Positions 1 to 34,575 of a DNA stretch of 42,979 nucleotides are shown in pieces. This stretch comes from a virus. Position numbers and translations under genes: made by a program. The first letter of the stretch is position 1. Each line of letters begins with the position of its first letter. Location: IMG/VR virus record IMGVR_UViG_3300050015_000439, positions 1 through 42,979 of that record, one strand, 5' to 3'. The notes under the pieces were generated by a model. It was not told the origin of the DNA, did not search any database, and was given only the letters and a program-made list of their open reading frames with translations.

Positions 1-79
1 TTTGAAGTGCGCGGAGTCCAGCTTCGGAAGTTTCTCTTGCGGCTAAATCTCATGTGATTCAGATAATGCGTTGTTAGGC
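1..79 (+). repeat. Degenerate, partial attC-like site (attC0)
   Basis: The right core GTTAGGC at 73-79 fits the integron core consensus GTTRRRY. The left part (AAGTGCGCGGAGTCCA) resembles the left arm of the next site (AAGTGCGTGGAGCCA). The outer RYYYAAC core is not present where expected and the two arms no longer pair. The site is therefore either decayed or cut by the window edge. Called only because five better copies follow. Confidence 0.35.
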
Positions 80-288
80 AGCAGTTCCGAGTTTGTCGCG
101 TTTTTCAGTGCGGCTGCCAAGTCTTTCGCATTGACCGATAATTTTTCTCCAATGATGCACAGGACTGCCATTGGAGCATCGCTAGGATGCGAGCATACCT
201 GCATTTGTGCTACCATATCCATTTCTTGTCCAGTTTCGGTTTCTTTTACTTTTTTATAGATATTGAGCGTATTTGTTACTGTTATCAT
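43..288 (-). CDS. Cassette ORF 1, hypothetical protein (81 aa)
   Basis: Not recognised. The 81-residue protein is mostly hydrophilic, with a short hydrophobic stretch in the middle (MAVLCIIG) and a Lys/Ala-rich C-terminal helix. It lies between the attC-like sites ending at 79 and beginning at 308. It starts about 20 nt inside its cassette and its last codons run through the GCCTAAC core into the neighbouring attC remnant, as do the other ORFs in this array. There is no Shine-Dalgarno site. The minus frame has more protein-like composition than the plus-strand ORFs here. Function unknown. Confidence 0.55.
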   Translation of the reverse strand: MITVTNTLNIYKKVKETETGQEMDMVAQMQVCSHPSDAPMAVLCIIGEKLSVNAKDLAAALKNATNSELLPNNALSESHEI

Positions 289-307
289 AGTGTCTTTCGT
301 GGCTGCT

Positions 308-416
308 GCCTAACAAGTGCGTGGAGCCAATCCCGGTTGGCCGCTGCACTTTATTCGTTTAGGTTTCTGGTTGTTTTACGTCGTGAGTCCGGGATGGCTC
401 ACGCACGGCGTTAGGC
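308..416 (+). repeat. attC-like site 1
   Basis: GCCTAAC at 308-314 and GTTAGGC at 410-416 match the RYYYAAC and GTTRRRY cores. The arms are imperfect inverted repeats: the left GTGCGTGGAGCCAATCCCGG pairs with the right arm except for two extra left-arm bases (a G and an A). Unpaired bases in one arm are a hallmark of attC sites, where they set strand choice. Length is 109 bp. By these extra bases and the leading AACAA, the canonical R''-L'' side is on the left of the plus strand. Confidence 0.75.
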
Positions 417-526
417 TGCCTCGGCTTCCGTGGTTTCAGCGGGCAGTTCTTTGGTGTTGTTCTGTTGTGCATATCAAGTTCCACGCTGGTTCCTGTCTTT
501 TTGCACTCCTCGACGGTGTGATACAT
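359..526 (-). CDS. Cassette ORF 2, hypothetical basic protein (55 aa)
   Basis: Not recognised. The frame is open further upstream into attC site 2 (to 649), but that part would be a translation of the attC sequence, so the ATG at 526 inside the cassette is preferred. The product is rich in Lys, Arg, Pro and Thr. Its C-terminal end reads through attC site 1. There is no Shine-Dalgarno site. A competing short frame starts at the ATG near 552 (27 codons). Weak call; the cassette may instead carry no protein. Confidence 0.3.
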   Translation of the reverse strand: MYHTVEECKKTGTSVELDMHNRTTPKNCPLKPRKPRQPNAVREPSRTHDVKQPET

Positions 527-571
527 TCCGGCGCTTACGGTTGTTCGGTGCGGGCATCGCTTACACCGGCA

Positions 572-682
572 GCCTAACAAGTCGCCGGAGCCAACCGCCG
601 TTGGCGCGGTCAGTGCGTTCGCTACGGGTTTCAGTAGTTCGTTTGTCATAGTTCGGCGGTGGCTCAGCTTTTTTCGTTAGGC
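572..682 (+). repeat. attC-like site 2
   Basis: Cores GCCTAAC (572-578) and GTTAGGC (676-682). The left arm carries GGAGCCAACCGCC and the right arm GGCGGTGGCTC, which pair with one extra left-arm A. The right arm also has the AGCTTTTTTCG spacer seen in sites 3, 4 and 5. The first 36 bp are identical to those of site 5. Length 111 bp. Confidence 0.8.
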
Positions 683-855
683 ATCGCGGCCATGCTTTCA
701 TTCCATGCTTCCCAAGCCAACTGGACAGCGATGTCTTTATATTGTCCCGGCCATGCGGCTTTCGCGCTGTCAGAAAAGCGGTCGGTTGGTTTTGAGTATG
801 GTTCGTCAGAAATCCATTCCTCGAACCTTTTACGATTTTCAGATTCTTGATTCAT
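664..855 (-). CDS. Cassette ORF 3, phage-type small acidic protein (63 aa)
   Basis: The pattern RFEEW near the start, then Y-D-VQLAWEAWNE near the end, resembles a family of short uncharacterised phage proteins with a C-terminal aWeAW signature. The role of that family is not known to me. The last residues (PNEKS) and the stop codon are encoded by the attC-like site. Just upstream, the attC sequence gives TTGTTA, and 17 nt later CATATA, 5 nt before the ATG, so the attC may supply a -35 element. This is the best supported cassette gene. Confidence 0.65.
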   Translation of the reverse strand: MNQESENRKRFEEWISDEPYSKPTDRFSDSAKAAWPGQYKDIAVQLAWEAWNESMAAMPNEKS

Positions 856-880
856 GTTTTTATATGTCGTTAATCGCTAT

Positions 881-988
881 GCCTAACAAGTCGCCGGAGC
901 CAACGCGGTTGGGCGCTTTCAGTTGTTCGTTTAGGCTCCAGATTGTTCAAAGTCTTCATTCCGCGTGGCTCAGCTTTTTTCGTTAGGC
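881..988 (+). repeat. attC-like site 3
   Basis: Cores GCCTAAC (881-887) and GTTAGGC (982-988). The left arm GGAGCCAACGCGG pairs with the right arm CCGCGTGGCTC with an extra left-arm A. It has the same AGCTTTTTTCG right spacer as sites 2, 4 and 5. Length 108 bp. Confidence 0.8.
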
Positions 989-1257
989 CAAATGAGTGCG
1001 CTTATTTCTTTTTTGCGTTTTGGCGTCCAATCTTCCGGCATGAGTTGCATTGCCAGAAGCAGACTGTCTGGTGTTTTGATTTGTCCGCACCGCACTCGTT
1101 TTACGATGTCGGTCTTTTCACTTGGACACCATGAATGTTGCGGCTCGTCTGGATTTACGGCGTCATATATTTGTCGGAATGTCGCGGTTGGCCTAACAAA
1201 GCGCCGGAGCCAATGCGGGGTGTTCCTCGCGTTTTCGATGTCGGTTTCGGTTTGCAT
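970..1257 (-). CDS. Cassette ORF 4, hypothetical protein (up to 95 aa)
   Basis: Not recognised. The frame is open from an ATG inside attC site 4 (1257), so the first 25 or so residues translate attC sequence. The cassette-internal part, from about TFRQIYDAV onward, is the protein-like part and ends in WPNEKS with its stop inside attC site 3. No ATG lies in this frame between the attC and the conserved part, so either translation starts in the attC or the native start was lost when the cassette was acquired. It has two Cys residues and a basic C-terminal helix. Function unknown. Confidence 0.45.
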   Translation of the reverse strand: MQTETDIENARNTPHWLRRFVRPTATFRQIYDAVNPDEPQHSWCPSEKTDIVKRVRCGQIKTPDSLLLAMQLMPEDWTPKRKKEISALIWPNEKS

Positions 1258-1317
1258 ATTGTTAATGTTGGCGATGCCGGGTTTCCGCCCCGCATGGCTC
1301 AGCTTTTTTCGTTAGGC
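1191..1317 (+). repeat. attC-like site 4
   Basis: Cores GCCTAAC (1191-1197) and GTTAGGC (1311-1317). The left arm GGAGCCAATGCGGGG pairs with the right arm CCCCGCATGGCTC with an extra left-arm base. The central variable part is longer than in the others; total length is 127 bp. Same AGCTTTTTTCG right spacer. Confidence 0.8.
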
Positions 1318-1590
1318 CACTACCACATCATGCAAACCCAGGCGCATTATTTGTTTCGAGATTTCAGCCTCGGCTTGCTGGTGTTGTTTTCGGTAGCGAG
1401 TTGCCATTTCAGGTTTCATGGTTATCAGTTTTTCAAGCGCGGCGTCTATTTCGTGCAGAGCTTGCTTGAGTTCCGCAAGCGCGGTTTCATCGGCGTCATC
1501 GCCGGTAAAGTTTCCGGCATCGCATTGGCGCAGCGCGTCAAGGAAGTCCACCTCGTCGTCGTAGCATTCATGGATTCTGTATTTCAGCAT
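1312..1590 (-). CDS. Cassette ORF 5, acidic coiled-coil protein (92 aa)
   Basis: Not recognised. It has an acidic N-terminal half (YDDEVDFLDALRQC) followed by long Ala/Glu/Lys/Gln helices likely to form a coiled coil. The stop codon TAA is part of the attC core GCCTAAC of site 4. The ATG lies about 18 nt inside the cassette, after attC site 5. No Shine-Dalgarno site. The compact fit between two attC-like sites supports a cassette gene; function unknown. Confidence 0.55.
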   Translation of the reverse strand: MLKYRIHECYDDEVDFLDALRQCDAGNFTGDDADETALAELKQALHEIDAALEKLITMKPEMATRYRKQHQQAEAEISKQIMRLGLHDVVVA

Positions 1591-1607
1591 ATAGTTTTAT
1601 CACCGTG

Positions 1608-1706
1608 GCCTAACAAGTCGCCGGAGCCAACCGCCGTTGGCGCTTGCCGTTCCGCTGTCGCGGTTCACGCCGCGAGTCGGCGGTGGCTCAGCTTTTTTCG
1701 TTAGCA
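1608..1706 (+). repeat. attC-like site 5 (right core decayed)
   Basis: GCCTAAC at 1608-1614. The first 36 bp are identical to site 2, the arm pairing CCGCCGTTGGC with CGGCGGTGGCTC is preserved, and the AGCTTTTTTCG spacer is present. The right core reads GTTAGCA (1700-1706) instead of GTTAGGC, so this outermost site may be inactive. It marks the junction between the cassette array and the phage early operon. Confidence 0.7.
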
Positions 1707-1800
1707 GGCTCGGCGAGCACCTTTTGAAGTTCGCGCAGTTCTTTGGCCGTTAACCAGAATCGAGTTTGAATAGTTTGGATTTTACTTTTTTATTTTTCAT
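1688..1800 (-). pseudogene. Frameshifted remnant of a small cassette-type gene
   Basis: From ATG 1800 the frame gives 16 codons and stops at 1750. A second frame, open from about 1790, reads a protein-like helix (TAKELRELQKVLAEPANEKS) and ends with the same NEKS plus stop inside attC site 5 that closes cassette ORFs 3 and 4. The two frames differ by a non-multiple of three (113 nt in total), which suggests one indel broke a roughly 37-residue gene. It could also be two unrelated short frames. Confidence 0.35.
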
Positions 1801-1812
1801 ATTTGTATGTTG

Positions 1813-2184
1813 TTAATCGCTAATCCCCGCTTCCTTCATTGCGGTTGCGCGGGTTATGTAGTTGGCTTGCGTCTTCCTGCGTGCTATCTGGATTCCACTC
1901 AAATTAGCCGGAGCTAACATCGTCAAATTAAAATCAAAACAGTCCCACTGCTCATACGCCATATTCTCCTCAACCCAAAGGGCGATTTGTTGCCATTCGG
2001 TTTCGAGGATTTCAGGACGCACAGGCCAGTTACCTTTATCTAGCCATCGAAAATTATACTCGGAATAGGCTTCATGCTTTGTGCCGTCAAGGTTGGTTTG
2101 TGCTGGACGTGTTAAATGCTCAGTAATAATCCTCTCCGGCAACTTCCCTGCGAGGTAGAGTTGGGCTTCGTGTTGGGTTAGCAT
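1813..2184 (-). CDS. Hypothetical phage early protein (123 aa)
   Basis: Not recognised. Soluble, rich in Trp and aromatic residues, with no membrane segment. It starts 5 nt after the YqaJ-type exonuclease gene stop, so it belongs to the early recombination operon. The start is preceded by TTGAATTT directly before the ATG, an AT-rich context repeated at several starts in this genome, not a Shine-Dalgarno site. It is the last operon gene before the attC-like array. Function unknown. Confidence 0.65.
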   Translation of the reverse strand: MLTQHEAQLYLAGKLPERIITEHLTRPAQTNLDGTKHEAYSEYNFRWLDKGNWPVRPEILETEWQQIALWVEENMAYEQWDCFDFNLTMLAPANLSGIQIARRKTQANYITRATAMKEAGISD

Positions 2185-2188
2185 AAAT

Positions 2189-2878
2189 TCAAGGTGTCAA
2201 ATCGTGATTTTCTTCCGTCTCGGACAAGGATTCGGCGGTTTGTGCCGTGAACCGTCTCGGCTCGCCACCATTCTTTTCAACCAGCTTTTTATATCCAGCG
2301 TCCAGCATAGGCAAAAATTCATTCAACGTCTCGCCGATGAAATCACAAATTTTTTCGTCTCTGAAAATCGTCGTGACGAACGGCGGAAACTTCGGGTGAA
2401 ACGACATGAATTTCCAAAACTTGCGGCCTGTGACGTAAAGGCTTCCGTGAACCTGCAAAACGTATTCATCCGGCAATTCTTCCGCCAAAAGATACTTTGT
2501 GTGCGTCTGGGCGCGGGGACACTTAATTTCAATCCCGCCATCATCGCCGATCAAACCGTCCGGCGAGCAGCCGATTGTTGCCGCGTCGTTCGTTATCAGG
2601 GCGACTTGCTGAATCGGCTCGTCAAACGAGACTTCGTAAAACGGGATTGCCATTTCCTCTTTGATTTTTCCAAACTCCATGTCGAGCGTGTTGAACGACG
2701 GCAGCGGCCCCATCCAACGCTCGGCCAGCTTTTGGGCGAGATAGCTGTCCACCATCTTGCCCTCACGCGCCTTGAACTTTGGGGTCATAAGTTCGTCGAA
2801 CTCCGACGCTGTGCAAACCCCGGCGCGGGCGGCAAGCCACTCTAAAGAGTTTTGGGCAAATTCTGTGTGGATTTTCAT
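2189..2878 (-). CDS. YqaJ-type phage recombination exonuclease
   Basis: This 229-residue protein fits the YqaJ/lambda-exonuclease nuclease family, which resects double-stranded DNA ends to give 3' overhangs for a single-strand annealing protein. Visible landmarks are W14 and R18 in the first helix, an upstream Glu pair (about 74-75), the catalytic SPDGLI (D107) and IEIK (E117, K119), and the following Q-HGSLYVTG segment. Length is normal for the family. Its ATG overlaps the stop of the preceding coiled-coil gene, so translation is probably coupled. An ERF-type protein is encoded two genes upstream, the usual partner. Family assignment is firm; substrate polarity is from the family. Confidence 0.9.
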   Translation of the reverse strand: MKIHTEFAQNSLEWLAARAGVCTASEFDELMTPKFKAREGKMVDSYLAQKLAERWMGPLPSFNTLDMEFGKIKEEMAIPFYEVSFDEPIQQVALITNDAATIGCSPDGLIGDDGGIEIKCPRAQTHTKYLLAEELPDEYVLQVHGSLYVTGRKFWKFMSFHPKFPPFVTTIFRDEKICDFIGETLNEFLPMLDAGYKKLVEKNGGEPRRFTAQTAESLSETEENHDLTP

Positions 2879-3831
2879 AGGCGTTCGGCTTGCGCTTCAA
2901 TCCAATCCGCCAATACATTCACCTTTTCCCAAACAGCATCCGATAAGGCATCGTCCGCCAATTTGAGCCGCGCCTTGTCTTTCAGTTCGCCAGCAAACAG
3001 GTTAAGTTTTGCTTTGTCCGGCGCGGCAGCGGCTTTCTTGGCGGCAGCGGCAGCGGCAGCGGCCTTTGCGGCTTCGGCGTCGCGTAGCGCCTTTGCGACA
3101 GCCTCTGCGGCGGCGCGTTCGTCAGCCAGTTTCTTTTCAGCCGCTTCACGCTCCGCTTTCGCCGCCGCTTCGCGGGCGATGGCTTCGGTTTTCAGCCGTG
3201 CATTTTCGGCGGCGATGCGTTCGCGCTCGATACGCTCGGATTCCGCCTTGGCCTTGGCTTCCGCCTCCGCTTTCGCGGCAGCATCAATCTTTGCCTGTTT
3301 CAAAAGCTTTGCGTCAGCCAGCATTTTGCCATAGTCGGCTTCCGAAAGTTCGGACAGATTGCCCATGATTGGAGTCTCCAAAAACGGTTTCAATTCCTTT
3401 TCGCGTGTCGCCTTTAATTCGGCCAGCCGCGCCGCCTCGGCTCGCTCGGCGATGTCCTCTGCGGCTTGAAGCGCGGTTTCCACCGGAGACAGATCGGCGA
3501 GCAAAATGTTATGAAACCCGTCCACGGCGCGGCCATAAAGCAGGGCGTGTTCCTTCTGTTTCTTGCGGACTCCATCGCTTTCCAGACGCACGGCGCGAAG
3601 CGCAAGGCGGCAGGCGCGGGACTTTTTGATTTCCTTAACACAGGTTGCGTCCTTCACAGAAGCAGCCACGCCGCGAGCGTCATCAATCGCAGCGCGAGCC
3701 TTGACGAAGATTGGCTTGAAAGCATCTGCCAAAGAAATGGCGGCGGTTTTTTCAAGCCCTGTTTCGTTGGCATACTTCACCAGTTTTTCGTCTGGATTTA
3801 CAATTTCGAGTTCGATGGTTTCAGTTTTCAT
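2875..3831 (-). CDS. Ala/Glu-rich coiled-coil protein of the recombination module
   Basis: 318 residues. An N-terminal globular part (about 1-130) is followed by a long charged coiled coil (about 130-270, almost all Ala, Glu, Lys and Arg) and a compact C-terminal part. Proteins of this shape, comparable to the DUF1351 type, often sit between phage annealing proteins and their nucleases; their exact role is not established. The start follows AGAAGAAAACCAAA, a weak Shine-Dalgarno match. The gene overlaps the exonuclease by 4 nt. The long plus-strand ORFs over this region are shadows of the repetitive GCX codons. Confidence 0.75.
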   Translation of the reverse strand: MKTETIELEIVNPDEKLVKYANETGLEKTAAISLADAFKPIFVKARAAIDDARGVAASVKDATCVKEIKKSRACRLALRAVRLESDGVRKKQKEHALLYGRAVDGFHNILLADLSPVETALQAAEDIAERAEAARLAELKATREKELKPFLETPIMGNLSELSEADYGKMLADAKLLKQAKIDAAAKAEAEAKAKAESERIERERIAAENARLKTEAIAREAAAKAEREAAEKKLADERAAAEAVAKALRDAEAAKAAAAAAAAKKAAAAPDKAKLNLFAGELKDKARLKLADDALSDAVWEKVNVLADWIEAQAERL

Positions 3832-3919
3832 TTTGGTTTTCTTCTAGGTGTTTAATTTGTTTCTCTAAATCTGCTACAACTTCTTTAGCTTGCTCGATTT
3901 CGGCGGTTTGTGAGAGCAA
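3821..3919 (-). CDS. Small coiled-coil ORF (32 aa, TTG start)
   Basis: The frame runs from a TTG at 3919, just after the ERF gene stop, to a TGA overlapping the start of the next gene. The product is a single Glu/Lys/Gln-rich amphipathic helix. An AGGA motif lies about 10 nt upstream, inside the end of the ERF gene. It fills an otherwise empty 92-nt gap in a packed operon, which is the main reason to call it. An alternative 17-codon ATG frame exists. Confidence 0.35.
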   Translation of the reverse strand: MLSQTAEIEQAKEVVADLEKQIKHLEENQNEN

Positions 3920-3923
3920 AGAT

Positions 3924-4673
3924 TCATTTTCCTTTTTGCTCCTTCATTCTCAACAATTGGTCAAGCACTTCATATTTCAACGTCGGGATTGCGGCGAACG
4001 AATCCACGCCAGCCATTTTCAGGAACGTCGCTCGGTTGCTGTTGGTAATCGCGACACGCTGTTCCAATTCTTCGGCTTGTTCCTTCGTTACCTTGCCGCC
4101 GAGATTGCGCGGGTCTGCGTCCTCTCTGATGCGAGACTTGATACCCAACATCTTTATGACCAAGTGACGCCACGCGCTTGTTGTCGCCCCTGTGTCGGCG
4201 GCGGTGGCGTCTTTCAAGGCGTTAGTATTTCCAGACCTGACCGAATACTCACGGGTTTCTTCGTGTCCTTCTTCGTGAATGAGGGTGATTATTGCGACAA
4301 TTTTTCCTTCGTCTGAACGCTGACCAAACATCATTGTGAAACCATGCTTTAATAAAACAGGCTCAAGCATTGATGAAAGTTCCGTTTCGCTGCAATAAGA
4401 ATATGCCACCTTGCCGTTGTTCATGGCGGCTTTGTCGGCGTAAAAGTCCATGCCGCTGATTTCTTGTCTCAATTTGAAAAAAGACTTGTTAAACTTGGCT
4501 TTGTTTGCGGCTGAAACCTCCTCACGGCGCATGGCAATGATGCGCTCCACCACGCCGACGCTCTCGGAAGTGATTCCACCACTGACAGCCGCGTTAAGGA
4601 TGTCCAAAGAAGTCAGCGCGGGTCGGACAACTGCTAATTCCTGCGATTCAATTTTAGCTAATTTCTCACTCAT
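3924..4673 (-). CDS. ERF-family single-strand annealing protein
   Basis: 249 residues with the ERF superfamily pattern: FxKLRxEI, MDFYADKAAMNNGKVAYSY, a central LEPVLLKHGFTMMF and IxTLIHEEGHEETREYS. The family's GxxTSAWRHLVIKMLGI stretch comes near residue 165. ERF proteins form rings on single-stranded DNA and anneal complementary strands during phage recombination or genome circularisation. Start: AAGGAAATT before the ATG is one of the clearer Shine-Dalgarno sites here. It is paired with the YqaJ-type exonuclease downstream in the same operon. Assignment is confident. Confidence 0.88.
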   Translation of the reverse strand: MSEKLAKIESQELAVVRPALTSLDILNAAVSGGITSESVGVVERIIAMRREEVSAANKAKFNKSFFKLRQEISGMDFYADKAAMNNGKVAYSYCSETELSSMLEPVLLKHGFTMMFGQRSDEGKIVAIITLIHEEGHEETREYSVRSGNTNALKDATAADTGATTSAWRHLVIKMLGIKSRIREDADPRNLGGKVTKEQAEELEQRVAITNSNRATFLKMAGVDSFAAIPTLKYEVLDQLLRMKEQKGK

Positions 4674-4685
4674 AATTTCCTTCGT

Positions 4686-4886
4686 TTATTTATTTGTTGG
4701 CTGCAAATCATTCGGGCTGTCGAGATTTTTTGCCTGTTCCGGCGTTAAAGATTTTGCCACGGATACCAAGGCGCGAGCGCGAATTTTCGCCTCATTGCGG
4801 GTTTCCGTTGACGGGTTGAGCAGCATATCCGCAATGGATTTTCCGTATTGTTCGGCTGCGTCTAAATAGCAATCAGTCATTTTCAT
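4686..4886 (-). CDS. Hypothetical early protein (66 aa)
   Basis: Not recognised. A small, mixed-charge, mainly helical protein with no motif. It sits 12 nt upstream of the ERF gene in the same operon and has protein-like codon use, so it is likely expressed with the recombination genes. Function unknown. Confidence 0.55.
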   Translation of the reverse strand: MKMTDCYLDAAEQYGKSIADMLLNPSTETRNEAKIRARALVSVAKSLTPEQAKNLDSPNDLQPTNK

Positions 4887-4908
4887 TTTTTAAGTTTCCT
4901 ATAATTTT

Positions 4909-5103
4909 TCAGTCGTTAAATTCCGCCGCTGGATGTTTGTCTAAAAACTTGTCAATGTCAGAGCCGGTCTTGGTGTCCTGCTCGCGCTCAATCTGACTCT
5001 CCCGCGCACGTTCCGCCCGATATTCCGCCAGACGCTCGTTAAATTCCGCGCGCTCCTCGTCGCTGCGGTCGTCGCAAGGTTTGGAAAATCTTGACCAGTT
5101 CAT
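4909..5103 (-). CDS. Hypothetical highly charged early protein (64 aa)
   Basis: Not recognised. About half of the residues are Glu, Asp, Arg or Lys, consistent with one long helix in the middle (ERAEFNERLAEYRAERARE). Its ATG is preceded directly by TTGAATTT, the recurrent AT-rich start context of this genome. Part of the early operon. Confidence 0.55.
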   Translation of the reverse strand: MNWSRFSKPCDDRSDEERAEFNERLAEYRAERARESQIEREQDTKTGSDIDKFLDKHPAAEFND

Positions 5104-5107
5104 AAAT

Positions 5108-5188
5108 TCAATCCGTCGTCAGCCATGCGAAATAGCCAATGGCGATCAAAAAGGCCGCCGTCAGGAAGGTTGTGGCGAAGGTTTTCAT
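5108..5188 (-). CDS. Small single-span membrane peptide (26 aa)
   Basis: The frame MKTFATTFLTAAFLIAIGYF continues for 6 more residues to the stop. It is one hydrophobic segment with a Lys at the N-terminus, so a one-pass inner-membrane peptide is likely. It fills the gap between the 61-aa and 64-aa early genes. It is too short for homology-based naming; an early phage peptide acting on the membrane is possible but not shown. Confidence 0.45.
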   Translation of the reverse strand: MKTFATTFLTAAFLIAIGYFAWLTTD

Positions 5189-5194
5189 GGTTTT

Positions 5195-5380
5195 TTAATT
5201 GAGAAAAACGACATTAAACGAGTCGCAGCCTTGGATTGACCGCGTTACGATTTTGATGCCAAGGAACCGTGCGCCGTTTAACACTTTCTGGCGGTCGGCT
5301 GGCGAGTGGACAAGAAATGATTTACCAGCCTTTAGTAGCGCGGCGGCTTGCAGTTCGGACAATGCTTTTTTGTTTCGCAT
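5195..5380 (-). CDS. First gene of the early operon, hypothetical (61 aa)
   Basis: Not recognised. A basic N-terminus (MRNKKALSELQAAALLKAGK) is followed by a mixed alpha/beta pattern; a small nucleic-acid-binding protein is possible. It has a promoter-like arrangement directly upstream (TTGAAA, 17 nt, TAGAGT, 7 nt, ATG), so its mRNA could be leaderless. It is the first gene after the non-coding segment and probably leads the early recombination operon running down to the attC-like array. Confidence 0.6.
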   Translation of the reverse strand: MRNKKALSELQAAALLKAGKSFLVHSPADRQKVLNGARFLGIKIVTRSIQGCDSFNVVFLN

Positions 5381-5387
5381 GAAACAA

Positions 5388-5416
5388 ACTCTATAATAAT
5401 CCTATTTTAATTTCAA
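5388..5416 (-). promoter_or_regulatory. Predicted early promoter, leaderless type
   Basis: On the minus strand TTGAAA (5416-5411), a 17-nt AT-rich spacer, TAGAGT (5393-5388), and the ATG 7 nt later. The TTGAAA-to-ATG distance is 30 nt, the same as at other starts in this genome. A TATTAT just upstream is an alternative -10. Confidence 0.5.
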
Positions 5417-5478
5417 CAAAAATCGTAAATTATTTTAACCCGATAAACATTGGACGAAACCTCCATAAAAGATTTCAG

Positions 5479-5506
5479 TTGCAAAATTCCGGCGAGCGTG
5501 TAGAGT
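5479..5506 (+). promoter_or_regulatory. Predicted promoter of the plus-strand small RNA
   Basis: TTGCAA (5479-5484), a 16-nt spacer, TAGAGT (5501-5506). The -10 hexamer is identical to the one predicted for the early operon on the opposite strand. A transcript would start near 5513, just ahead of the closing stem of the structured segment. Confidence 0.4.
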
Positions 5507-5512
5507 TTTGGT

Positions 5513-5677
5513 GTTCAGCCGTTCGTTGCGGCATGAGTAATGCAAAGAACCAAATCACAATTTGATTCCCTGTTAGGCGCAAGGCCAATAAGCCAAGCAC
5601 CGCAGTTACTCGCGGCAACGAACTATCAGGGCATCGTCACTCCAATTCTCAGCAATGAGGGTTGGAGTTTTCTTTTG
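5513..5677 (+). ncRNA. Predicted structured small RNA, about 165 nt
   Basis: This segment carries no credible ORF but shows nested pairing. GTTCGTTGC (5521-5529) pairs with GCAACGAAC (5615-5623), and inside it GAGTAA (5535-5540) pairs with TTACTC (5606-5611). Smaller stems are enclosed (AATCA/TGATT and GGC/GCC). It ends at a terminator hairpin with a U-rich tail, and a promoter-like pair lies just upstream, so start, fold and end fit one transcription unit antisense to the surrounding genes. It matches no RNA family I can name; a 6S-like or antisense regulatory RNA is conceivable. Confidence 0.45.
5639..5677 (+). terminator. Rho-independent terminator, plus strand
   Basis: ACTCCAA (5639-5645) pairs with TTGGAGT (5662-5668). 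An inner CTCA-GCAA-TGAG hairpin has a GNRA-type loop. A T-rich tail (TTTTCTTTT) follows. All annotated neighbours are on the other strand, so it implies a plus-strand transcript. Confidence 0.65.
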
Positions 5678-5956
5678 TCCGCCACTGAACCGTTCGCGGT
5701 CAACCGATAATGCTTCGGCTCGCCGTTGAAAACACGCTCACTGTGATTAAAAACCGGGTGAGTTAAAAACGCCGTGAAGCTCCTTTTGCTTAACTTTCAC
5801 GGCTGCTGTGACGCACCACGCGCAAGTGGTAACGGCTTTGATTTGTTGTCTGTGTGCCTATCGCGTCCAAAAGCTCCGAGCGATTCCCATTTGGGCAGAG
5901 TTCAAAAGCGACAGTGAATCCGACTTGGGTTTGCTGTTGCAACCGGCTCAAACCCT
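5678..5956. other. Non-coding remainder between lysis and early genes
   Basis: No credible ORF on either strand. It contains an ACCG-TTCG-CGGT tetraloop hairpin near 5688-5700, a CCAC-GTGG hairpin near 5817, and a minus-strand terminator (separate entry). The segment may hold a second, minus-strand structured RNA ending at that terminator, or simply the 3' UTR of the lysis operon. Confidence 0.5.
5763..5803 (-). terminator. Rho-independent terminator of the late or lysis operon
   Basis: On the minus strand GCCGTGAAAG pairs with CTTCACGGC (5803-5794 with 5779-5771) and is followed by GTTTTTAA (5770-5763). It lies about 150 nt after the last lysis-region gene and separates the late operon from the early one. 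Confidence 0.65.
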
Positions 5957-6304
5957 TTAGGCATGGTTCAAAGACAATTTCCTAAACCACCAAGAAACAT
6001 TCCTCGCCCAATTATTTGAATCCAGCGGGCAATAAATCCGGCTCATAAACGGAATAAAATCATTCGTTCGACCACTTGCAATCCATCTGGCGTAGTTTTT
6101 TCTCACGGAATTTTCGCAGATTCGTTTTGCATCGGCAGCGTCTTTGTATTTCACCGAGCGGATTCCGTAAAGCCATTGTGCGTTTGTGCCGCCCTCGCTG
6201 ATGTAGATGGCTCTGGTGATTGTCTCGACTTGATTCGAGGAAAGAATTTGCGCGTGAACGGAGAAGGCTAGAATGCAAAGCGCAAGGATTGTGGCTTTGG
6301 TCAT
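5957..6304 (-). CDS. Secreted lysozyme-like endolysin candidate (115 aa)
   Basis: The N-terminus (MTKATILALCILAFSVHAQ) is a signal peptide or signal anchor. The rest follows a pattern I associate with small phage lysozyme-like proteins: an early Glu in ISEGG, then YGI, a DAxxICxxSVxxN segment, RW, a GRTNDFIPFMSRIY stretch and a closing NW-NV. E38 of SEGG is the natural catalytic candidate. A role in degrading host peptidoglycan at lysis fits its place next to small membrane proteins. It overlaps the preceding gene by 4 nt. Enzyme class is inferred from pattern and context only. Confidence 0.5.
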   Translation of the reverse strand: MTKATILALCILAFSVHAQILSSNQVETITRAIYISEGGTNAQWLYGIRSVKYKDAADAKRICENSVRKNYARWIASGRTNDFIPFMSRIYCPLDSNNWARNVSWWFRKLSLNHA

Positions 6305-6756
6305 GCCCCAACTTGATAAGACCTTTTGCCAAATTTGTCAACAGCCCAAAACAAAGTGTCTGCCATTTCCTGCGTGTCACCACAAACAAGAGCGCACTCG
6401 AAAATAAAAGCATCGCTGGCGGCTTTGGATCGGCCTTGTGATGAATCCCATTTAGTCCATGCGATGCCGTCCCAAACTTGAAGTGAGAATCGGTAGCAGC
6501 AATCGTGAAACCATCCTGCCGCCCAATCGTTACCACCAGGCGTCCGGCCAAACAATGCCGCGAAATTCGGAACGCTCAACCCGTCGCTCTGCGCTCCAAC
6601 TGGCATTTGATACAGCCGACCATCCTTTGCCAGATAAAAAACCGGCTTCGTGAGGATGAATAATTGACCGCCATTGGAAATAGTTGAGAAATCCTGCGTT
6701 GAAAATTCACCCAATTGAGTCAGGTGAAATCCGCAGATTGAGAATGTGTCGAGCAT
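6301..6756 (-). CDS. DUF1353-type phage protein
   Basis: 151 residues. The segment YQMPVGAQSDGLSVPNF followed by GWFHDCCYR matches the DUF1353 family, small phage proteins typically found beside lysis genes, with a T/SDGaSVP motif and a later HD pair. Biochemical function is unestablished; the conserved His-Asp suggests a metal or catalytic site. It overlaps the endolysin candidate downstream by an ATGA, so the two are probably co-translated. Confidence 0.7.
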   Translation of the reverse strand: MLDTFSICGFHLTQLGEFSTQDFSTISNGGQLFILTKPVFYLAKDGRLYQMPVGAQSDGLSVPNFAALFGRTPGGNDWAAGWFHDCCYRFSLQVWDGIAWTKWDSSQGRSKAASDAFIFECALVCGDTQEMADTLFWAVDKFGKRSYQVGA

Positions 6757-6860
6757 AATAAAAATGCGCCTTTGTTTCTATGGGCAAGAATTGTCTCCGT
6801 TCGCCCTTCCACGCTTCTCACGTAGCACCATCCGGCGCAATCCCCGCCCCAGCCGCGCAC
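6720..6860 (-). CDS. Possible small Cys-containing ORF (46 aa, GTG start)
   Basis: The gap between the outer-membrane-type gene and the DUF1353 gene contains one open minus frame with protein-like content (GWGGDCAGWCYVRSVEGR). It starts at GTG 6860 and overlaps the DUF1353 start by 37 nt. No Shine-Dalgarno site is visible. It may be a real small gene or the remnant of one; otherwise the 155-nt gap holds nothing else that I see. Confidence 0.25.
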   Translation of the reverse strand: MRGWGGDCAGWCYVRSVEGRTETILAHRNKGAFLLCSTHSQSADFT

Positions 6861-6911
6861 CGTCGCCCCATTAAAAACGGCGATGCGCTTCCGGCTGGTG
6901 CGAGAAATCGG

Positions 6912-7445
6912 TTAAAAAGTGATGCCAAATCCGGCTTCGATGGACGGATTCCGGCTGAACTGGCTTCCAGCGTAATATGGCAATGCCACGCGCAAAAAGC
7001 TGAACGTGTTGTCCGTCATTTTCTTTTTCAATGTCAGGTTCGGCTCGAATTTGAACGCCTTCAAATTGAAATCGTAACCCGCGCCAAGCCGCGCATCTAC
7101 CACGGTGTCGAAATCCTCGAAAATGGCGTATCCGATTTCTGGCGTGATTGAATTGACCGAGCTTCCAACTCCGTCGAACTCCAAGTCCGCCGACGCATTT
7201 ATCCGAATGGCGAAGTTGTATTGAACGTCCAGAGCGTCCGCCGCCGGTTCATTGATGACTTGCTTGTAGCCCGTGTCAATCTGCCAGCTTGAATTTGTCG
7301 TCCAGTTGAACGCCGGATTGAACGAAGTGAAGTAGGCTTCGGCGGACACGAAGATGCTGTTGGTCGAGTTCTGCGCCTGCGTTGTTATCGTCGCCAGCCC
7401 GAAAGCCGCGACGCCGATGAGTATTTTCAGTGTTTTATTTTTCAT
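6912..7445 (-). CDS. Exported beta-barrel-like outer membrane protein (177 aa)
   Basis: The start is placed at ATG 7445 because it begins a typical signal peptide (basic MKNKTLK, hydrophobic core, TQAQ cleavage end). The longer frame upstream lies over another small gene. The mature part alternates polar and aromatic residues in short strands, repeats G-Y/F patterns and ends in a strand closing with FGITF, typical of outer membrane beta-barrels with a C-terminal Phe. A phage-encoded outer membrane protein could block receptors (superinfection exclusion) or assist lysis. No specific family is recognised. Confidence 0.55.
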   Translation of the reverse strand: MKNKTLKILIGVAAFGLATITTQAQNSTNSIFVSAEAYFTSFNPAFNWTTNSSWQIDTGYKQVINEPAADALDVQYNFAIRINASADLEFDGVGSSVNSITPEIGYAIFEDFDTVVDARLGAGYDFNLKAFKFEPNLTLKKKMTDNTFSFLRVALPYYAGSQFSRNPSIEAGFGITF

Positions 7446-7476
7446 GGGTTTGATTGGTGGTTTGGTTTGTTTGTCG

Positions 7477-7584
7477 TCAAAAACTTTTGTAAAGCAGCCA
7501 CAGGCACGCGCCAATGATGCCGAGAGTCACAAGACCCATCAGCCCGGTGGACATCAGCCGCAAAATTTGAGTTGAAGTTTTCAC
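7477..7584 (-). CDS. Small one-span membrane protein of the lysis region (35 aa)
   Basis: A GTG start at 7584 gives a short basic leader and then one transmembrane helix (about residues 12-32, LMGLVTLGIIGACLWLLY), ending KSF. It sits between the outer-membrane-type gene and a two-span membrane gene. Tiny membrane proteins at this position can be holin or lysis accessory proteins. The size prevents a firm name. Confidence 0.45.
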   Translation of the reverse strand: MKTSTQILRLMSTGLMGLVTLGIIGACLWLLYKSF

Positions 7585-7590
7585 GCGTTT

Positions 7591-7869
7591 TTAATTGTCA
7601 GGTTTCGGCAAACCCTGCGAAAGGAAGATTGCCATTTTTCCGACTGCGCCGCCAACGAAAATAATCAGCATCATGTGCCAGCCAACGGCGGGAATATCGG
7701 CAACTCCCGCGCCGTGAGCAATGGCAAGCCCACCGCTTGATGTCACTGAAGTTGCTCCGCCAATAATCCCTGCATTGAGCAAATTGTAGCCCCACTTTTC
7801 CATAATGGATAACTGCCGCTGTGCGGCTGGCGCTATGGCTTTTTGAATAAAGGTTGTTTCGTCTGGCAT
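7591..7869 (-). CDS. Two-span holin-like membrane protein (92 aa)
   Basis: A hydrophilic N-terminus is followed by two hydrophobic segments (about residues 30-50 and 62-84, the second starting at VGWHMMLIIF) and a short tail ending LSQGLPKPDN. Two membrane spans, small size and its place beside an endolysin candidate and other small membrane genes fit a class II-like holin, which forms the inner-membrane lesion at lysis. The Ser/Thr/Gly-rich first segment and the final SQGLP resemble small uncharacterised phage membrane proteins. No catalytic feature. Confidence 0.5.
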   Translation of the reverse strand: MPDETTFIQKAIAPAAQRQLSIMEKWGYNLLNAGIIGGATSVTSSGGLAIAHGAGVADIPAVGWHMMLIIFVGGAVGKMAIFLSQGLPKPDN

Positions 7870-7873
7870 AAAA

Positions 7874-7957
7874 TCATTTCTCGTTGCGCTCCCATTGCGC
7901 CGCCAGACAGATTAAAAATCCGACGGCGAACACGGCGAGATATACAAAGGCAATCAT
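7874..7957 (-). CDS. Small one-span membrane peptide (27 aa)
   Basis: The frame MIAFVYLAVFAVGFLICLAA continues with QWERNEK and stops. One transmembrane helix with a charged C-terminal end. It fills the gap between two lysis-region membrane genes, 4 nt from the gene upstream and 4 nt from the one downstream. A spanin-type or holin-accessory role is possible but not shown. Confidence 0.45.
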   Translation of the reverse strand: MIAFVYLAVFAVGFLICLAAQWERNEK

Positions 7958-7961
7958 TTTA

Positions 7962-8336
7962 TTATTTTTCCTTGAGTTGAAATTCAATTATGGCAATGCG
8001 CTTGTCCATGTCGTCCTGTTCTTTTAACCGGCTGTATTTTTCCTCATTAAACTTTTCATCCTGCGTCACCACGGCCTGCGCCAGTGTTGCGGAGGATTGC
8101 GATGTCCGTTCAACATCCAGGTTGATAGGATGAATGGCCGCGCCCCAGACGAAACCAAACAGCGCTCCGACGACCACCAGCCCGGCAAAGATGGTCTGCC
8201 AGTCCGTCTTGTAGGACTTGTTGAGGGAGTCCTGAATCTGGTTCAACAATTTCCAGATGCCAGAAAGCTCGGTCGAGATGTTTTTTACCTGCGTCTCAAC
8301 CGTTGCAAGTCTTTCTTTTTCGATGGTCGTATCCAT
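7962..8336 (-). CDS. Coiled-coil membrane protein of the lysis region (124 aa)
   Basis: The start is placed at ATG 8336, preceded by the recurrent TGAATTT context; TTG and GTG codons upstream are possible alternatives. An N-terminal coiled coil (about 1-45), one membrane segment (about 50-70, FAGLVVVGALFGFVWG) and a second charged coiled coil follow. This coil-TM-coil form resembles XhlA-type or spanin-like lysis proteins. Function inferred from topology and position. Confidence 0.5.
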   Translation of the reverse strand: MDTTIEKERLATVETQVKNISTELSGIWKLLNQIQDSLNKSYKTDWQTIFAGLVVVGALFGFVWGAAIHPINLDVERTSQSSATLAQAVVTQDEKFNEEKYSRLKEQDDMDKRIAIIEFQLKEK

Positions 8337-15479: not shown

Positions 15480-16062
15480 TAAGGAGATTTACCTGCCGCA
15501 TTTGCTGCGGGTGATTCAGTCCTATGTCAGCGTCGAGCCTGAAATTGTGACTACCTATAACGGAGCAGACCTTAATTTTCCATGCACACTGCGCCGTCCA
15601 AACATGGGGCATCAGCACGGCGACCATGATTTGACGATGACTGGCTACAACCATTTCCGAACTCTGAATGATGGATTCAGATTCATCAAAATCGGCATTG
15701 ATTCTTTCCTGCTTGATGAAAATGTCCTGATTCACATATTCGAGACGATGGAACGCGAACAATGCTGCTACGCCGGAAACCGATGGCACAATGAATCCTC
15801 ACCAAGCCTTGCGACGGACATCATGTTTCTCGACACGCGGTTTGGAAACCCTCTTAACCCCCCGCACGGCATGGAAAAGGACGCGGACGATTTTGAACAA
15901 TGGATGTGGAAATCCGTCCATCGTAGAAATTTGAAATGGCTGGAAATACAGCAGCGAAAGCCAGTCCATCCAGACAACCGCATGGAGTGCGAGAAATTGA
16001 AATGGACGATGCAACATCAGCTTGACAAGAACCTTGAGAATATACGCAGGTGGGGATTTTAG
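15448..16062 (+). CDS. Glycosyltransferase-like protein, GT-A type (204 aa)
   Basis: It begins MKINFIITAFDKEIYLPHLL, a GT2-like nucleotide-sugar-binding start, and carries FIKIGIDSFLLDE in the place of the metal-binding acidic motif. It is shorter than a usual GT2 enzyme and lacks a clear second half, so acceptor and even activity are uncertain. The start lies 32 nt inside the end of the GT9-like gene. Its 3' end overlaps the convergent radical SAM gene by 4 nt, so no terminator fits between them. Confidence 0.5.
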   Translation: MKINFIITAFDKEIYLPHLLRVIQSYVSVEPEIVTTYNGADLNFPCTLRRPNMGHQHGDHDLTMTGYNHFRTLNDGFRFIKIGIDSFLLDENVLIHIFETMEREQCCYAGNRWHNESSPSLATDIMFLDTRFGNPLNPPHGMEKDADDFEQWMWKSVHRRNLKWLEIQQRKPVHPDNRMECEKLKWTMQHQLDKNLENIRRWGF

Positions 16063-31911: not shown

Positions 31912-34575
31912 ATGCCAAAAATAATTGACAAATACGGTTCACAATGGAACGCGCCGCCCCTTCCGATTCAGGTGGAATTTCTGATGATGATGCAGCCGGA
32001 CGAAGTGCTTAAAAAGGCCGGAGTTTCAAAACCGGATATTTACAAAAATGCCGCAAAGACTATCTGGCCTCATCTTGACTGGCATCGCTGGATGGAGCTT
32101 TGCAACAATGAAATTAGAAGGCCGGAGGCAAAAGTAACCGTCATCATGGGCGCGGGATGCGTGGCCGGGCACACAAGGATTTTGAACCCCCTCACAGGCG
32201 AACAGCCAACCATCAAAGAACTTTACGAAAGCCAAACCGCCCCAATCGTAATGACGCTTCATGGGGCAGCACAAGCCGGAATCCCATTCATCAAGGGAGT
32301 CGAAGATTTGTATGAAGTGGTTTTGGAAAACGGTTCAAAATTTACAGTGACCCAAGAACACAGGATTTTAACCGCTCGCGGTTTTTTGCACGTTGCCGAC
32401 TTGCTTGCAAACGACTGCCTTTTCTCATACGAAGTCCAATCTCGTGGGCAAGATGCGATAAGCCATCTTGAAACAATCGAAGATTTGACGGATTGTTGTT
32501 GCTTTTCGTTCCATCCAAATGGTGAACTACTTCGCTATGCGAGAGAAGCCTGCCAAGTTTCTCCTCCATCACAAGACGATGCTCTAAAACATAACCTGAA
32601 ACATTCCGGTTCGGGTGATTTGGACTGTAAATTAAAACATAACCTTTCTTTGTCACAAGCCTTCCCCCCTTCCATCGGTGGGAGCGCCCCCCCTTGTGAT
32701 TTCTTGGGAAATCGCGAGTCACGCCATTTGCCCGAAGAAATCTTTTTATGTGCCGCGCCTTCGATCCGATGCGGCGTCCAATCTCATTTAGAGACGCGCC
32801 GGAATTATTCATTTGAAAAACAAGTTCCTGATTTCTCCGACAAGCACTATCAGGACGAATTCTTTTGTAATCAAAAATTGATTTCATTGCGATTCAATAT
32901 AACCCAAAGCAAAATAGTGTCAATAACTGAAACCCATAAAGATATTTTTTACGACATCAGCGTTCCGGGCGTTGAGCATTATTTCGCGGAAGGCGCGATT
33001 CATCACAATTCAACGGGCAAAACCTGCGTCTCTGGATGGGAATATCTTCTCGAATACTATGCCTCGCCAGACGACACCCTTGTTTTGATTTCTTCAACAG
33101 ATTTAAGCTCTCTGGAAGGCCGTGTCTGGGGCGAACTTAAAATGCTTCACGAAATGGCGGTTCAAAAATTTCCGTGGCTGCCCGGATATTTGCTGGATTC
33201 CAAACACTGCATTACAACCGACCGGCTTGAGAAAGACGAATACGAGGAAGAATCTAAAACCAGAGATTTAAGAAAAGGCGTAATGTGTGTTCCCACAATT
33301 CAAGGCAATAAAAACGTGGGTCTTGGAAAGTGGATTGGTCGAAAACAAAAACACATGAGGCTGATAGCGGACGACTGCACGGCCATGTCCGCTACTTTTC
33401 TTTCAGCGTTTGCAAACCTCAATAACAACATTGATTTTCAGGCGATTATTTTGGGAAATCCAAGCGATATTCTTGATCCGCTTGGAATCGCAAGCGAGCC
33501 GCTTGATGGATGGTCTGGGCATCTTGAGCCGACAAAAACAACCGTTTGGGACACTAGGTTTTTCAACGGAAGATGTATAAATCTGGTTGGAACCGACAGC
33601 CCTAATTTTGATTTCCCCGAAAACCAGCCGGAAAAATATCCTTATCTGGTGAGCCGAAAAAAAATCAATGAAACGATGTCTGCGTTTGCAAAAGACAGTT
33701 ACGAGTATTTCAGCCAATGCGTCGGCGTGATGAAAATATCACAACTGGCCAGAAGGGTAATCACAAAGGATTTATGCAGACAGTTTCATGTCAAAGACAA
33801 GGCGATTTGGAGTGGTGAAAAAAGAACAGTGATCGCCGCTCTGGATGCCAGCTATGGCGGCGACAGATGCGTTGGTGGTCATGCAGAATACGGAAAGTGC
33901 ATTGACGATGTAATCAGGCTTCAATTCTATCCACACCATATCGTCCCGGTAGCCACCCAAAGCGGAGAACCAATGGTTTCCGAAGATTCTATTTCAAAAT
34001 TCGAGAAAAAGTATTGCGAGTCAAATCAGATTCCTCCAGAAAACTTCTTCCATGACAGCACTGGCAGAGGCTCTCTTGGGACTTCCCTGTCGAGAACTTG
34101 GTCGTCATTGTGCAATCCAGTTGAGTTTGGTGGTGCGGCAACCAAAAGGCCGGTCACAATGGATACATTTGTCATAGACAAAGAAACTGGAAGAAAAAGA
34201 CTCAAGCGGTGTGAAGAAGCATATTCAAAATTTGTCACGGAACTTTATTGGAGTTTGAGGCTGGCGATTGAAGCCGACCAGATACGAGGGTTGCCGGAAG
34301 ATGTAATCGAAGAAATGTGCATGAGGGAATGGGACAGGGTTTCCGGGGACAGAATTGAAGTAGAATCTAAAATTTTAATGAAGGTCAGAACTCGAAAATC
34401 TCCCGACTTGGCGGATTGGGCTGTGATTATTTTGGAAGGCGCGAGACGAAGGGGATTTCAAATCTCGAAAATGTCGAACAAAGACGAGTCTCAATCCGAC
34501 TCAAACCGCTGGCTCTCCGACCTGTCCAAGAAACGGTTTGAATGGCATAAAAGCAAGATGATTTCAGTTCGTTAA
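31912..34575 (+). CDS. terL: Terminase large subunit interrupted by an intein
   Basis: 887 residues as encoded. Without the intein (residues 83-366) the product is about 603 residues, normal for a terminase large subunit, the ATP-driven packaging motor and headful or cos nuclease. Landmarks are the Walker A GAG/STGKT split exactly by the intein, Walker B MRLIADD (about D487-D488), then a RuvC-like nuclease with AALDASYGG (D645), FFHDSTG (D715) and SPDLADW (D832/D835). Unless the intein splices, the P-loop is broken. The gene is on the plus strand whereas portal and tail genes on both sides are minus. Confidence 0.93.
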   Translation: MPKIIDKYGSQWNAPPLPIQVEFLMMMQPDEVLKKAGVSKPDIYKNAAKTIWPHLDWHRWMELCNNEIRRPEAKVTVIMGAGCVAGHTRILNPLTGEQPTIKELYESQTAPIVMTLHGAAQAGIPFIKGVEDLYEVVLENGSKFTVTQEHRILTARGFLHVADLLANDCLFSYEVQSRGQDAISHLETIEDLTDCCCFSFHPNGELLRYAREACQVSPPSQDDALKHNLKHSGSGDLDCKLKHNLSLSQAFPPSIGGSAPPCDFLGNRESRHLPEEIFLCAAPSIRCGVQSHLETRRNYSFEKQVPDFSDKHYQDEFFCNQKLISLRFNITQSKIVSITETHKDIFYDISVPGVEHYFAEGAIHHNSTGKTCVSGWEYLLEYYASPDDTLVLISSTDLSSLEGRVWGELKMLHEMAVQKFPWLPGYLLDSKHCITTDRLEKDEYEEESKTRDLRKGVMCVPTIQGNKNVGLGKWIGRKQKHMRLIADDCTAMSATFLSAFANLNNNIDFQAIILGNPSDILDPLGIASEPLDGWSGHLEPTKTTVWDTRFFNGRCINLVGTDSPNFDFPENQPEKYPYLVSRKKINETMSAFAKDSYEYFSQCVGVMKISQLARRVITKDLCRQFHVKDKAIWSGEKRTVIAALDASYGGDRCVGGHAEYGKCIDDVIRLQFYPHHIVPVATQSGEPMVSEDSISKFEKKYCESNQIPPENFFHDSTGRGSLGTSLSRTWSSLCNPVEFGGAATKRPVTMDTFVIDKETGRKRLKRCEEAYSKFVTELYWSLRLAIEADQIRGLPEDVIEEMCMREWDRVSGDRIEVESKILMKVRTRKSPDLADWAVIILEGARRRGFQISKMSNKDESQSDSNRWLSDLSKKRFEWHKSKMISVR
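32342..32887 (-). CDS. HNH endonuclease encoded antisense inside the intein
   Basis: 181 residues. Residues about 15-55 look like a helix-turn-helix (LNEIGRRIGSKARHIKRFL). The nuclease follows: GYVLIYSPNHPN, EHRLVMEEKLGR (H103), the catalytic VVHHLDG (H122-H123, D125), NNNPSNLRLF (N132, N135) and SHLAHEIG (H145, H148), the usual HNH_3-type order in phage mobile endonucleases. It lies wholly within intein codons on the other strand; its last codons overlap intein block B. Likely role: homing of the intein by cutting intein-less terL. Target specificity is inferred, not shown. Confidence 0.88.
   Translation of the reverse strand: MKSIFDYKRIRPDSACRRNQELVFQMNNSGASLNEIGRRIGSKARHIKRFLRANGVTRDFPRNHKGGRSHRWKGGRLVTKKGYVLIYSPNHPNRNVSGYVLEHRLVMEEKLGRLLSHSEVVHHLDGTKSNNNPSNLRLFQDGLSHLAHEIGLRMRKGSRLQASRQRAKNRERLKSCVLGSL
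32896..32923 (-). promoter_or_regulatory. Predicted promoter for the antisense HNH gene
   Basis: On the minus strand a perfect TTGACA (32923-32918), a 16-nt spacer and TATATT (32901-32896, five of six to TATAAT), then 8 nt to ATG 32887. The 30-nt TTGACA-to-ATG distance equals that at several phage genes. It lies within plus-strand codons just before intein block F, so one sequence serves both strands. Confidence 0.6.

Follow-up and report, generated by a model that had tools for sequence, protein, structure and literature searches.

Gene cassettes in a phage and its relatives run against the direction of their integron attC sites

One end of the virus record IMGVR_UViG_3300050015_000439 (IMG/VR; all 42,979 nucleotides, positions 1 to 42,979, were analysed and are called the window here) carries a row of small genes separated by repeats that resemble the recombination sites of bacterial integrons. 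This raises the question of whether these repeats are true attC sites and, if so, what an integron cassette array is doing in a phage. The original prediction, made from sequence alone, was of five attC-like sites and a remnant, with one small open reading frame between each pair, forming an array without an integrase (a CALIN) that would let accessory phage genes be shuffled by host or co-resident integrases; it added that phages were not known to carry such arrays as a normal part, and that a chimeric join near position 1700 would refute it. The features are as follows, with codon scores given for the reverse strand against the forward strand.

73..79 (+): right core (R' GTTAGGC) of an attC whose other half is cut off by the contig end; neither of our two covariance models gives a match here.
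43..288 (-): cassette gene, 81 aa, ATG 20 nt from its own attC (308-416), ending in the remnant attC; codon score of 80-307, 9.2 against 2.7; no Pfam or PHROG match.
308..416 (+): attC site 1; E 9.6e-14 with model R2 (described below); bottom-strand fold z -4.74.
359..649 (-): candidate cassette gene, 96 aa, ATG inside its own attC (572-682), which encodes the leader MTNELLKPVANALTAPTAVGSGDLLG; Cys-rich, with CxxC directly after the attC; no Pfam match; the codon score favours the reverse strand (6.8 against 3.6) but in another frame, so the frame is unsure.
572..682 (+): attC site 2; R2 E 7.1e-23; bottom-strand ATG open to the gene side.
664..855 (-): cassette gene, 63 aa, ATG 25 nt from its own attC (881-988), reading MPNEKS-stop through the right core of site 2; phrog_343, E 5.1e-6, unknown function; codon score 10.0 against 2.9.
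881..988 (+): attC site 3; R2 E 2.7e-21.
970..1257 (-): candidate cassette gene, 95 aa, ATG inside its own attC (1191-1317); codon score undecided.
1191..1317 (+): attC site 4; R2 E 1.4e-18.
1312..1590 (-): cassette gene, 92 aa, ATG 17 nt from its own attC (1608-1706), stopping at the TAA of the right core of site 4; codon score 19.1 against 9.6; only sub-threshold Pfam matches.
1608..1706 (+): attC site 5, outermost, with right core GTTAGCA; junction with the phage operon; R2 E 7.6e-28.
2189..2878 (-): YqaJ-type exonuclease gene upstream of the array, same strand as the cassette genes; PF09588 E 1.3e-21, phrog_149 E 8e-33.
3924..4673 (-): Erf-like ssDNA annealing protein gene, same strand; phrog_155 E 5.8e-11.
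31912..34575 (+): terminase large subunit, which marks the record as a tailed phage; phrog_17415 E 5.9e-7.

The observation holds: all five sites are present where they were predicted. A covariance model that included these sites (R1) finds them but is not independent, and we therefore built a second model (R2) from 34 sites found by motif in bacterial metagenome-assembled genomes, with no viral site. R2 returns five matches in the window at E<=10, and they are these five, all on the + strand. Across 38 sites the consensus structure comprises 19 pairs, of which 9 show at least one double change, and one VTS-stem pair reads C-G 19 times and G-C 18 times, so that structure is conserved while sequence varies; two positions are unpaired in the left arm (columns 15-16) against one on the right (120), consistent with imperfect L arms carrying an extra left-arm base. 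The bottom strands of the five sites fold into the R/L-box cruciform with z from -4.7 to -1.6. The RYYYAAC and GTTRRRY core boxes are present in four of the five sites, which have GTTAGGC as right core; the GTTAGCA of site 5 departs from GTTRRRY. Each spacer holds one small gene on the minus strand; of four complete spacers, three are called reversed by codon usage and one (989-1190) is undecided. No integron integrase was found in the record (no TIGR02249 match at E<=0.01), hence the array is a CALIN and not a complete integron. Rfam has no match in the window, no tRNA was found, no phage in the annotated collection matches window positions 1-8000, and a search for close relatives of the window's exonuclease gave none.

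The interpretation offered in the original prediction was only partly supported. The sites are of attC type, the array lacks an integrase, and it lies in a phage genome beside recombination genes, but the suggestion that phages are not known to carry such arrays is not supported: 17 CALINs, 3 complete integrons and one In0 have been reported in 21 phages, with methyltransferase cassettes, and IntI1 recombined 5 of 6 tested phage attC sites (PMC9892861). The presence of the array is thus not in itself new. The prediction also missed that the cassette genes are inverted relative to attC polarity, that the sites carry start codons, and that such arrays recur in many phages, some encoding IntI.

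A chimeric assembly or misfiled bacterial contig might be suspected, since the array lies at a cut contig end, IMG/VR holds fragments, virus-calling programs favour contigs with few strand switches, which could enrich co-directional IntI contigs, and only 14 of 50 IntI-bearing virus records showed a terminase or portal match with the three families tried. This can be answered indirectly. Three other array-bearing virus records, which we label G028 (58,746 bp), G031 (71,632 bp) and G034 (44,650 bp), have direct terminal repeats of 127, 127 and 99 bp and contain phage genes, so such arrays are parts of closed phage genomes. Phage hallmark genes occur in several array-bearing records, and arrays lie beside exonuclease or annealing genes in the window and in records G026, G028 and G031. 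Moreover, inverted cassettes are rare in bacteria (see below), so misfiled bacteria could not give the virus pattern. We consider an assembly or filing artefact very unlikely.

A gapped pattern of the site occurs in 14 stretches of the virus collection and in 35 stretches of bacterial contigs, of which 30 bear Verrucomicrobia-group titles, three are titled only 'bacterium', one is a Proteobacteria bin and one a Phycisphaerales bin. Of 24 such genomes, 17 have an integron integrase over the NCBIfam cut-off. R2 matches 43 of 58 genomes sampled from the order of one of them (G001), and a terminase relative of the window occurs in 2 of 146 genomes of that order. We infer a Limisphaerales-type host.

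In which direction do the cassette genes run? Of 18 bacterial IntI loci read, all 13 that contain an attC match have it on the 5' side of IntI and on the opposite strand, which is the usual geometry, so the strand called + is the usual top strand. All matches within a bacterial locus lie on one strand, save one weak mirror match; in the virus records a few scattered sites lie on the other strand, and record G029 has two arrays of opposite polarity. In ten virus records including the window, 57 of 74 cassettes are reversed relative to their attC, 2 are forward and 15 undecided by codon usage, whereas in Verrucomicrobia integrons with the same attC family 34 of 64 are forward, 3 reversed and 27 undecided (Fisher p 4e-20 on decided cassettes). 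Counting units, 10 of 10 virus records and 1 of 17 bacterial loci with decided cassettes have a reversed majority. Excluded before counting were spacers under 60 or over 1600 nt, records L015, L016, L072 and L073 as repeats of others, five of the 95 matches of one scan (three cut off at an end, one weak, one on the wrong strand), and bacterial matches cut off or seen twice. The result was the same with a host-trained codon model (virus 43 reversed, 2 forward, 29 undecided; bacteria 3, 34 and 27), with a pooled model (56, 2 and 16 against 4, 41 and 19), and by plain ORF cover (31 reversed, 4 forward, 19 tied against 8, 48 and 8).

The one bacterial locus with a reversed majority, L018, belongs to genome G002, whose contig C225 is itself phage-like, with terminase, head morphogenesis, major head protein, IntI and three attC. 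Its two cassettes are undecided by codon usage and longer on the reverse strand by ORF cover, and the genes before IntI run with IntI.

These directions bear on the possibility of ordinary capture, in which the phage simply picked up a piece of the host's chromosomal integron, as described for Vibrio and Shewanella prophages. Such captures are published, and attC of the same family are common in Verrucomicrobia. However, a captured piece would keep the host's gene direction, as Shewanella prophage M16-3 does, where IntI diverges from genes that run with its two weak attC matches. Here 57 of 59 decided virus cassettes run the other way, spacers are shorter (median 243.5 against 387), and no cassette of 180 bp or more was shared between a phage and a bacterial locus. 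We therefore think ordinary capture unlikely. R1 gave no convincing attC in Tetrasphaera phage TJE1 or Pseudoalteromonas phage H101, in which attC activity was measured previously (one match at E 0.0069, without proper core boxes), and none in phage Rctr41k, although the latter has an IntI-like gene running with its neighbours, and these were not used for polarity.

In a canonical cassette the attC follows the gene, whereas here the unit reads attC then gene. The bottom strand of 77 of 95 virus sites has an ATG in a frame open to the gene side, against 28 of 99 bacterial sites; shuffled interiors give a mean of 36.9 and a maximum of 50 over 500 shuffles. Of the 57 reversed cassettes, the first ATG lies inside the attC in 26, within 45 nt of it in 18 and later in 10, and none was found in 3. 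Frames entering the next attC end at its TAA (+3) or TGA (+16) in 24 of 57. We considered that these stops had been selected, but rejected this because frames entering the consensus stop there anyway; they show that reading frames run into the site. It could be argued from these start and stop codons, and from the position of the array in an operon, that the repeats are phage-specific expression elements (terminator, processing hairpin or translational leader) that only resemble attC. Against this, they match a model of bacterial integron sites next to IntI, keep both core boxes and the extra left-arm base, covary as a stem, sit beside IntI in one phage record (G027), and one unit has been exchanged with breaks at the core. 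We regard this alternative as very unlikely.

The exchange involves records G031 and G029, which share one 879-bp stretch at 98% and no other DNA match of 180 bp or more. The cassette, with the same 87-residue gene, is nearly identical from the GTTAGAC core of one attC to the CGTTAG of the next, and the flanks are unrelated, which is what site-specific cassette exchange would leave. This was the only clear exchange found, and as the left attC is also similar, with mismatches next to its core, the event may have involved more than one unit.

Of 14 virus records with these sites, only G027 has an integron-type integrase (263.6 bits, cut-off 265); G032 has a weak general match. G027 has portal, terminase and protease genes, and its IntI, beside three attC, has the IntI-specific stretch and the catalytic residues in the alignment. 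The IntI start lies some 34 nt after a GCCTAAC core that we take for attI, and the cassette genes run towards it. More widely, 155 stretches of the virus collection encode an IntI relative, of which 80 were kept. Of 50 of their records, 49 exceed the IntI cut-off and 14 show a terminase or portal match with the three families tried. Genes 5' of IntI run with IntI in 62 of 63 loci (17 of the 80 had too short a flank), although this is weaker than it looks given the preference of virus-calling programs for few strand switches. Bacterial flanks of IntI are mixed in direction (101 same, 74 opposite windows in 14 flanks), so that co-direction alone is weak and we rely on the attC-based test. By that test, in IntI-bearing virus records of other lineages, 17 of 20 cassettes between R1 matches are reversed, 1 forward and 2 undecided (one pair is the same cassette; 44 of 62 matches used, repeats and weak ones left out). 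In an IntI tree, virus and bacterial rows separate with 6 changes, but bacteria other than Verrucomicrobia are missing from it and we draw no claim of a phage clade.

We propose, with good confidence, that the window carries a phage-borne integron array made of inverted cassettes, each mobile unit being one attC plus one small gene that runs away from its own attC, against attC polarity and with the phage's recombination-gene operon. In this view the attC does two jobs: as folded single-stranded DNA (bottom strand) it should be the recombination site for an integron integrase, while in the message it would end the previous reading frame and often give the next gene its start codon and first residues, so that a unit dropped in at any position could be read without a promoter of its own. 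As phages like this one lack intI, the enzyme would come from the Verrucomicrobia host (most related host genomes examined carry one) or from a co-infecting phage, and the result would be a cassette pool exchanged between phages, with methyltransferases and other accessory genes; some phages carry their own intI. Our computations establish the identity of the attC sites, their polarity, the anatomy of starts and stops, recurrence in closed phage genomes and one cassette exchange with attC borders; the host, supply of IntI in trans, recombination itself (insertion and excision at the bottom-strand fold), transcription from the operon, translation from the attC start and any counter-defence or other benefit to the phage are inferred. 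In the window, one of the four complete cassettes is undecided, another is scored in a frame other than the one we favour, and the left end of the record is cut. The inversion makes sense if a phage operon must be read one way, with transcription entering from the phage side of the array and each new unit bringing its own start, although this does not explain why selection turned the genes rather than the whole array.

A broader reading, which we judge only slightly more likely than not, is that phages own a class of integron of their own, in which IntI-bearing and IntI-less phages share a pool of inverted cassettes whose attC is at once recombination site, stop for the preceding gene and translation start for its own gene, so that cassettes plug in frame into a one-way phage operon. 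This would be a phage counterpart of bacterial integrons, exchanged between unrelated phages; the reversed cassettes in IntI-bearing records of other lineages, and the genes 5' of IntI that run with it in 62 of 63 loci, extend the support beyond the Verrucomicrobia phages. Integrons are the best known gene-shuffling device of bacteria and were recently linked to phage defence, and a phage version with its genes turned round would mean that phages run their own cassette exchange, plausibly for counter-defence. It also makes an old question testable, since a folded attC in the message slows ribosomes on the next gene (PMC8876359), and these phages seem to put the start codon inside the attC instead.

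Phage CALINs are known, but inversion with attC-borne starts looks new: our literature searches, which did not extend to subscription journals or preprints, found no paper on inverted phage cassettes or attC-borne start codons in phages. In the parts of PMC9892861 that we consulted, where the hosts differ from ours, cassette genes are described as in one direction and typical, without mention of inversion or of start codons inside attC. The chromosomal integrons of Verrucomicrobia subdivision 3 / Limisphaerales share the attC family, but their genes run with attC, their spacers are longer and their attC contain far fewer start codons. Spirochaete integrons with intI in reverse orientation (PMC9668308) are another departure from the usual direction relation. 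There the integrase gene is turned, whereas in G027 IntI keeps the usual place, with its 5' end next to the array, and the cassette genes are turned. In Vibrio chromosomal integrons single genes lie against attC polarity, but these are a minority there, whereas nearly all decided cassettes are reversed here.

The larger phage cassettes include N6/N4 and Dam methyltransferases, plausibly for counter-defence. Cassette proteins with Pfam matches are N6/N4 methylases (G029, G034), Dam (G034), a PAPS reductase domain (G026), ATP-grasp R2K (G031), and a sigma-region/AP2 protein and a weak radical SAM match (G029), whereas Pfam found nothing in ten smaller proteins, nine of them cassette proteins. 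In G027 a methyltransferase-like gene, so read from its motifs as Pfam gave no match, starts in one attC and ends in the next.

A 21-base stretch (TTTATATGTCGTTAATCGCTA, with a 90% identical copy) is found at 856-880 and 1802-1822, where it lies just upstream of the ATG of a cassette gene and near the start of the non-cassette gene 1813-2184. Similar leaders follow attC in two further virus records with these sites (G026 and G027), and this may be a phage ribosome-binding or promoter element. Some sites, including that ending at 1700-1706 in the window and the bacterial sites L019, L030, L047 and L051, have a right core GTTAGC(A/C/T), which breaks GTTRRRY; in the window this core is the junction with phage DNA, and it may mark insertion at a secondary site.

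A contig binned with a Verrucomicrobia subdivision 3 genome (G002:C225, loci L218 and L219) is phage-like, with terminase and head genes, and carries IntI and three attC, providing a possible phage-host link. In phage Rctr41k (KX853513; locus L216, 4680-5678) a gene annotated xerD, which is integrase-like, matches a virus IntI at 45% identity and all listed neighbours run the same way, although no attC was seen there with model R1, the covariance model whose building set included the window sites.

The phage record G029 has two attC arrays of opposite polarity, one near each end, both with inverted cassettes. One cassette of this record has a weak radical SAM match, while the phage in the window encodes a radical SAM protein at 16059-17138 (phrog_21308, E 2e-12).
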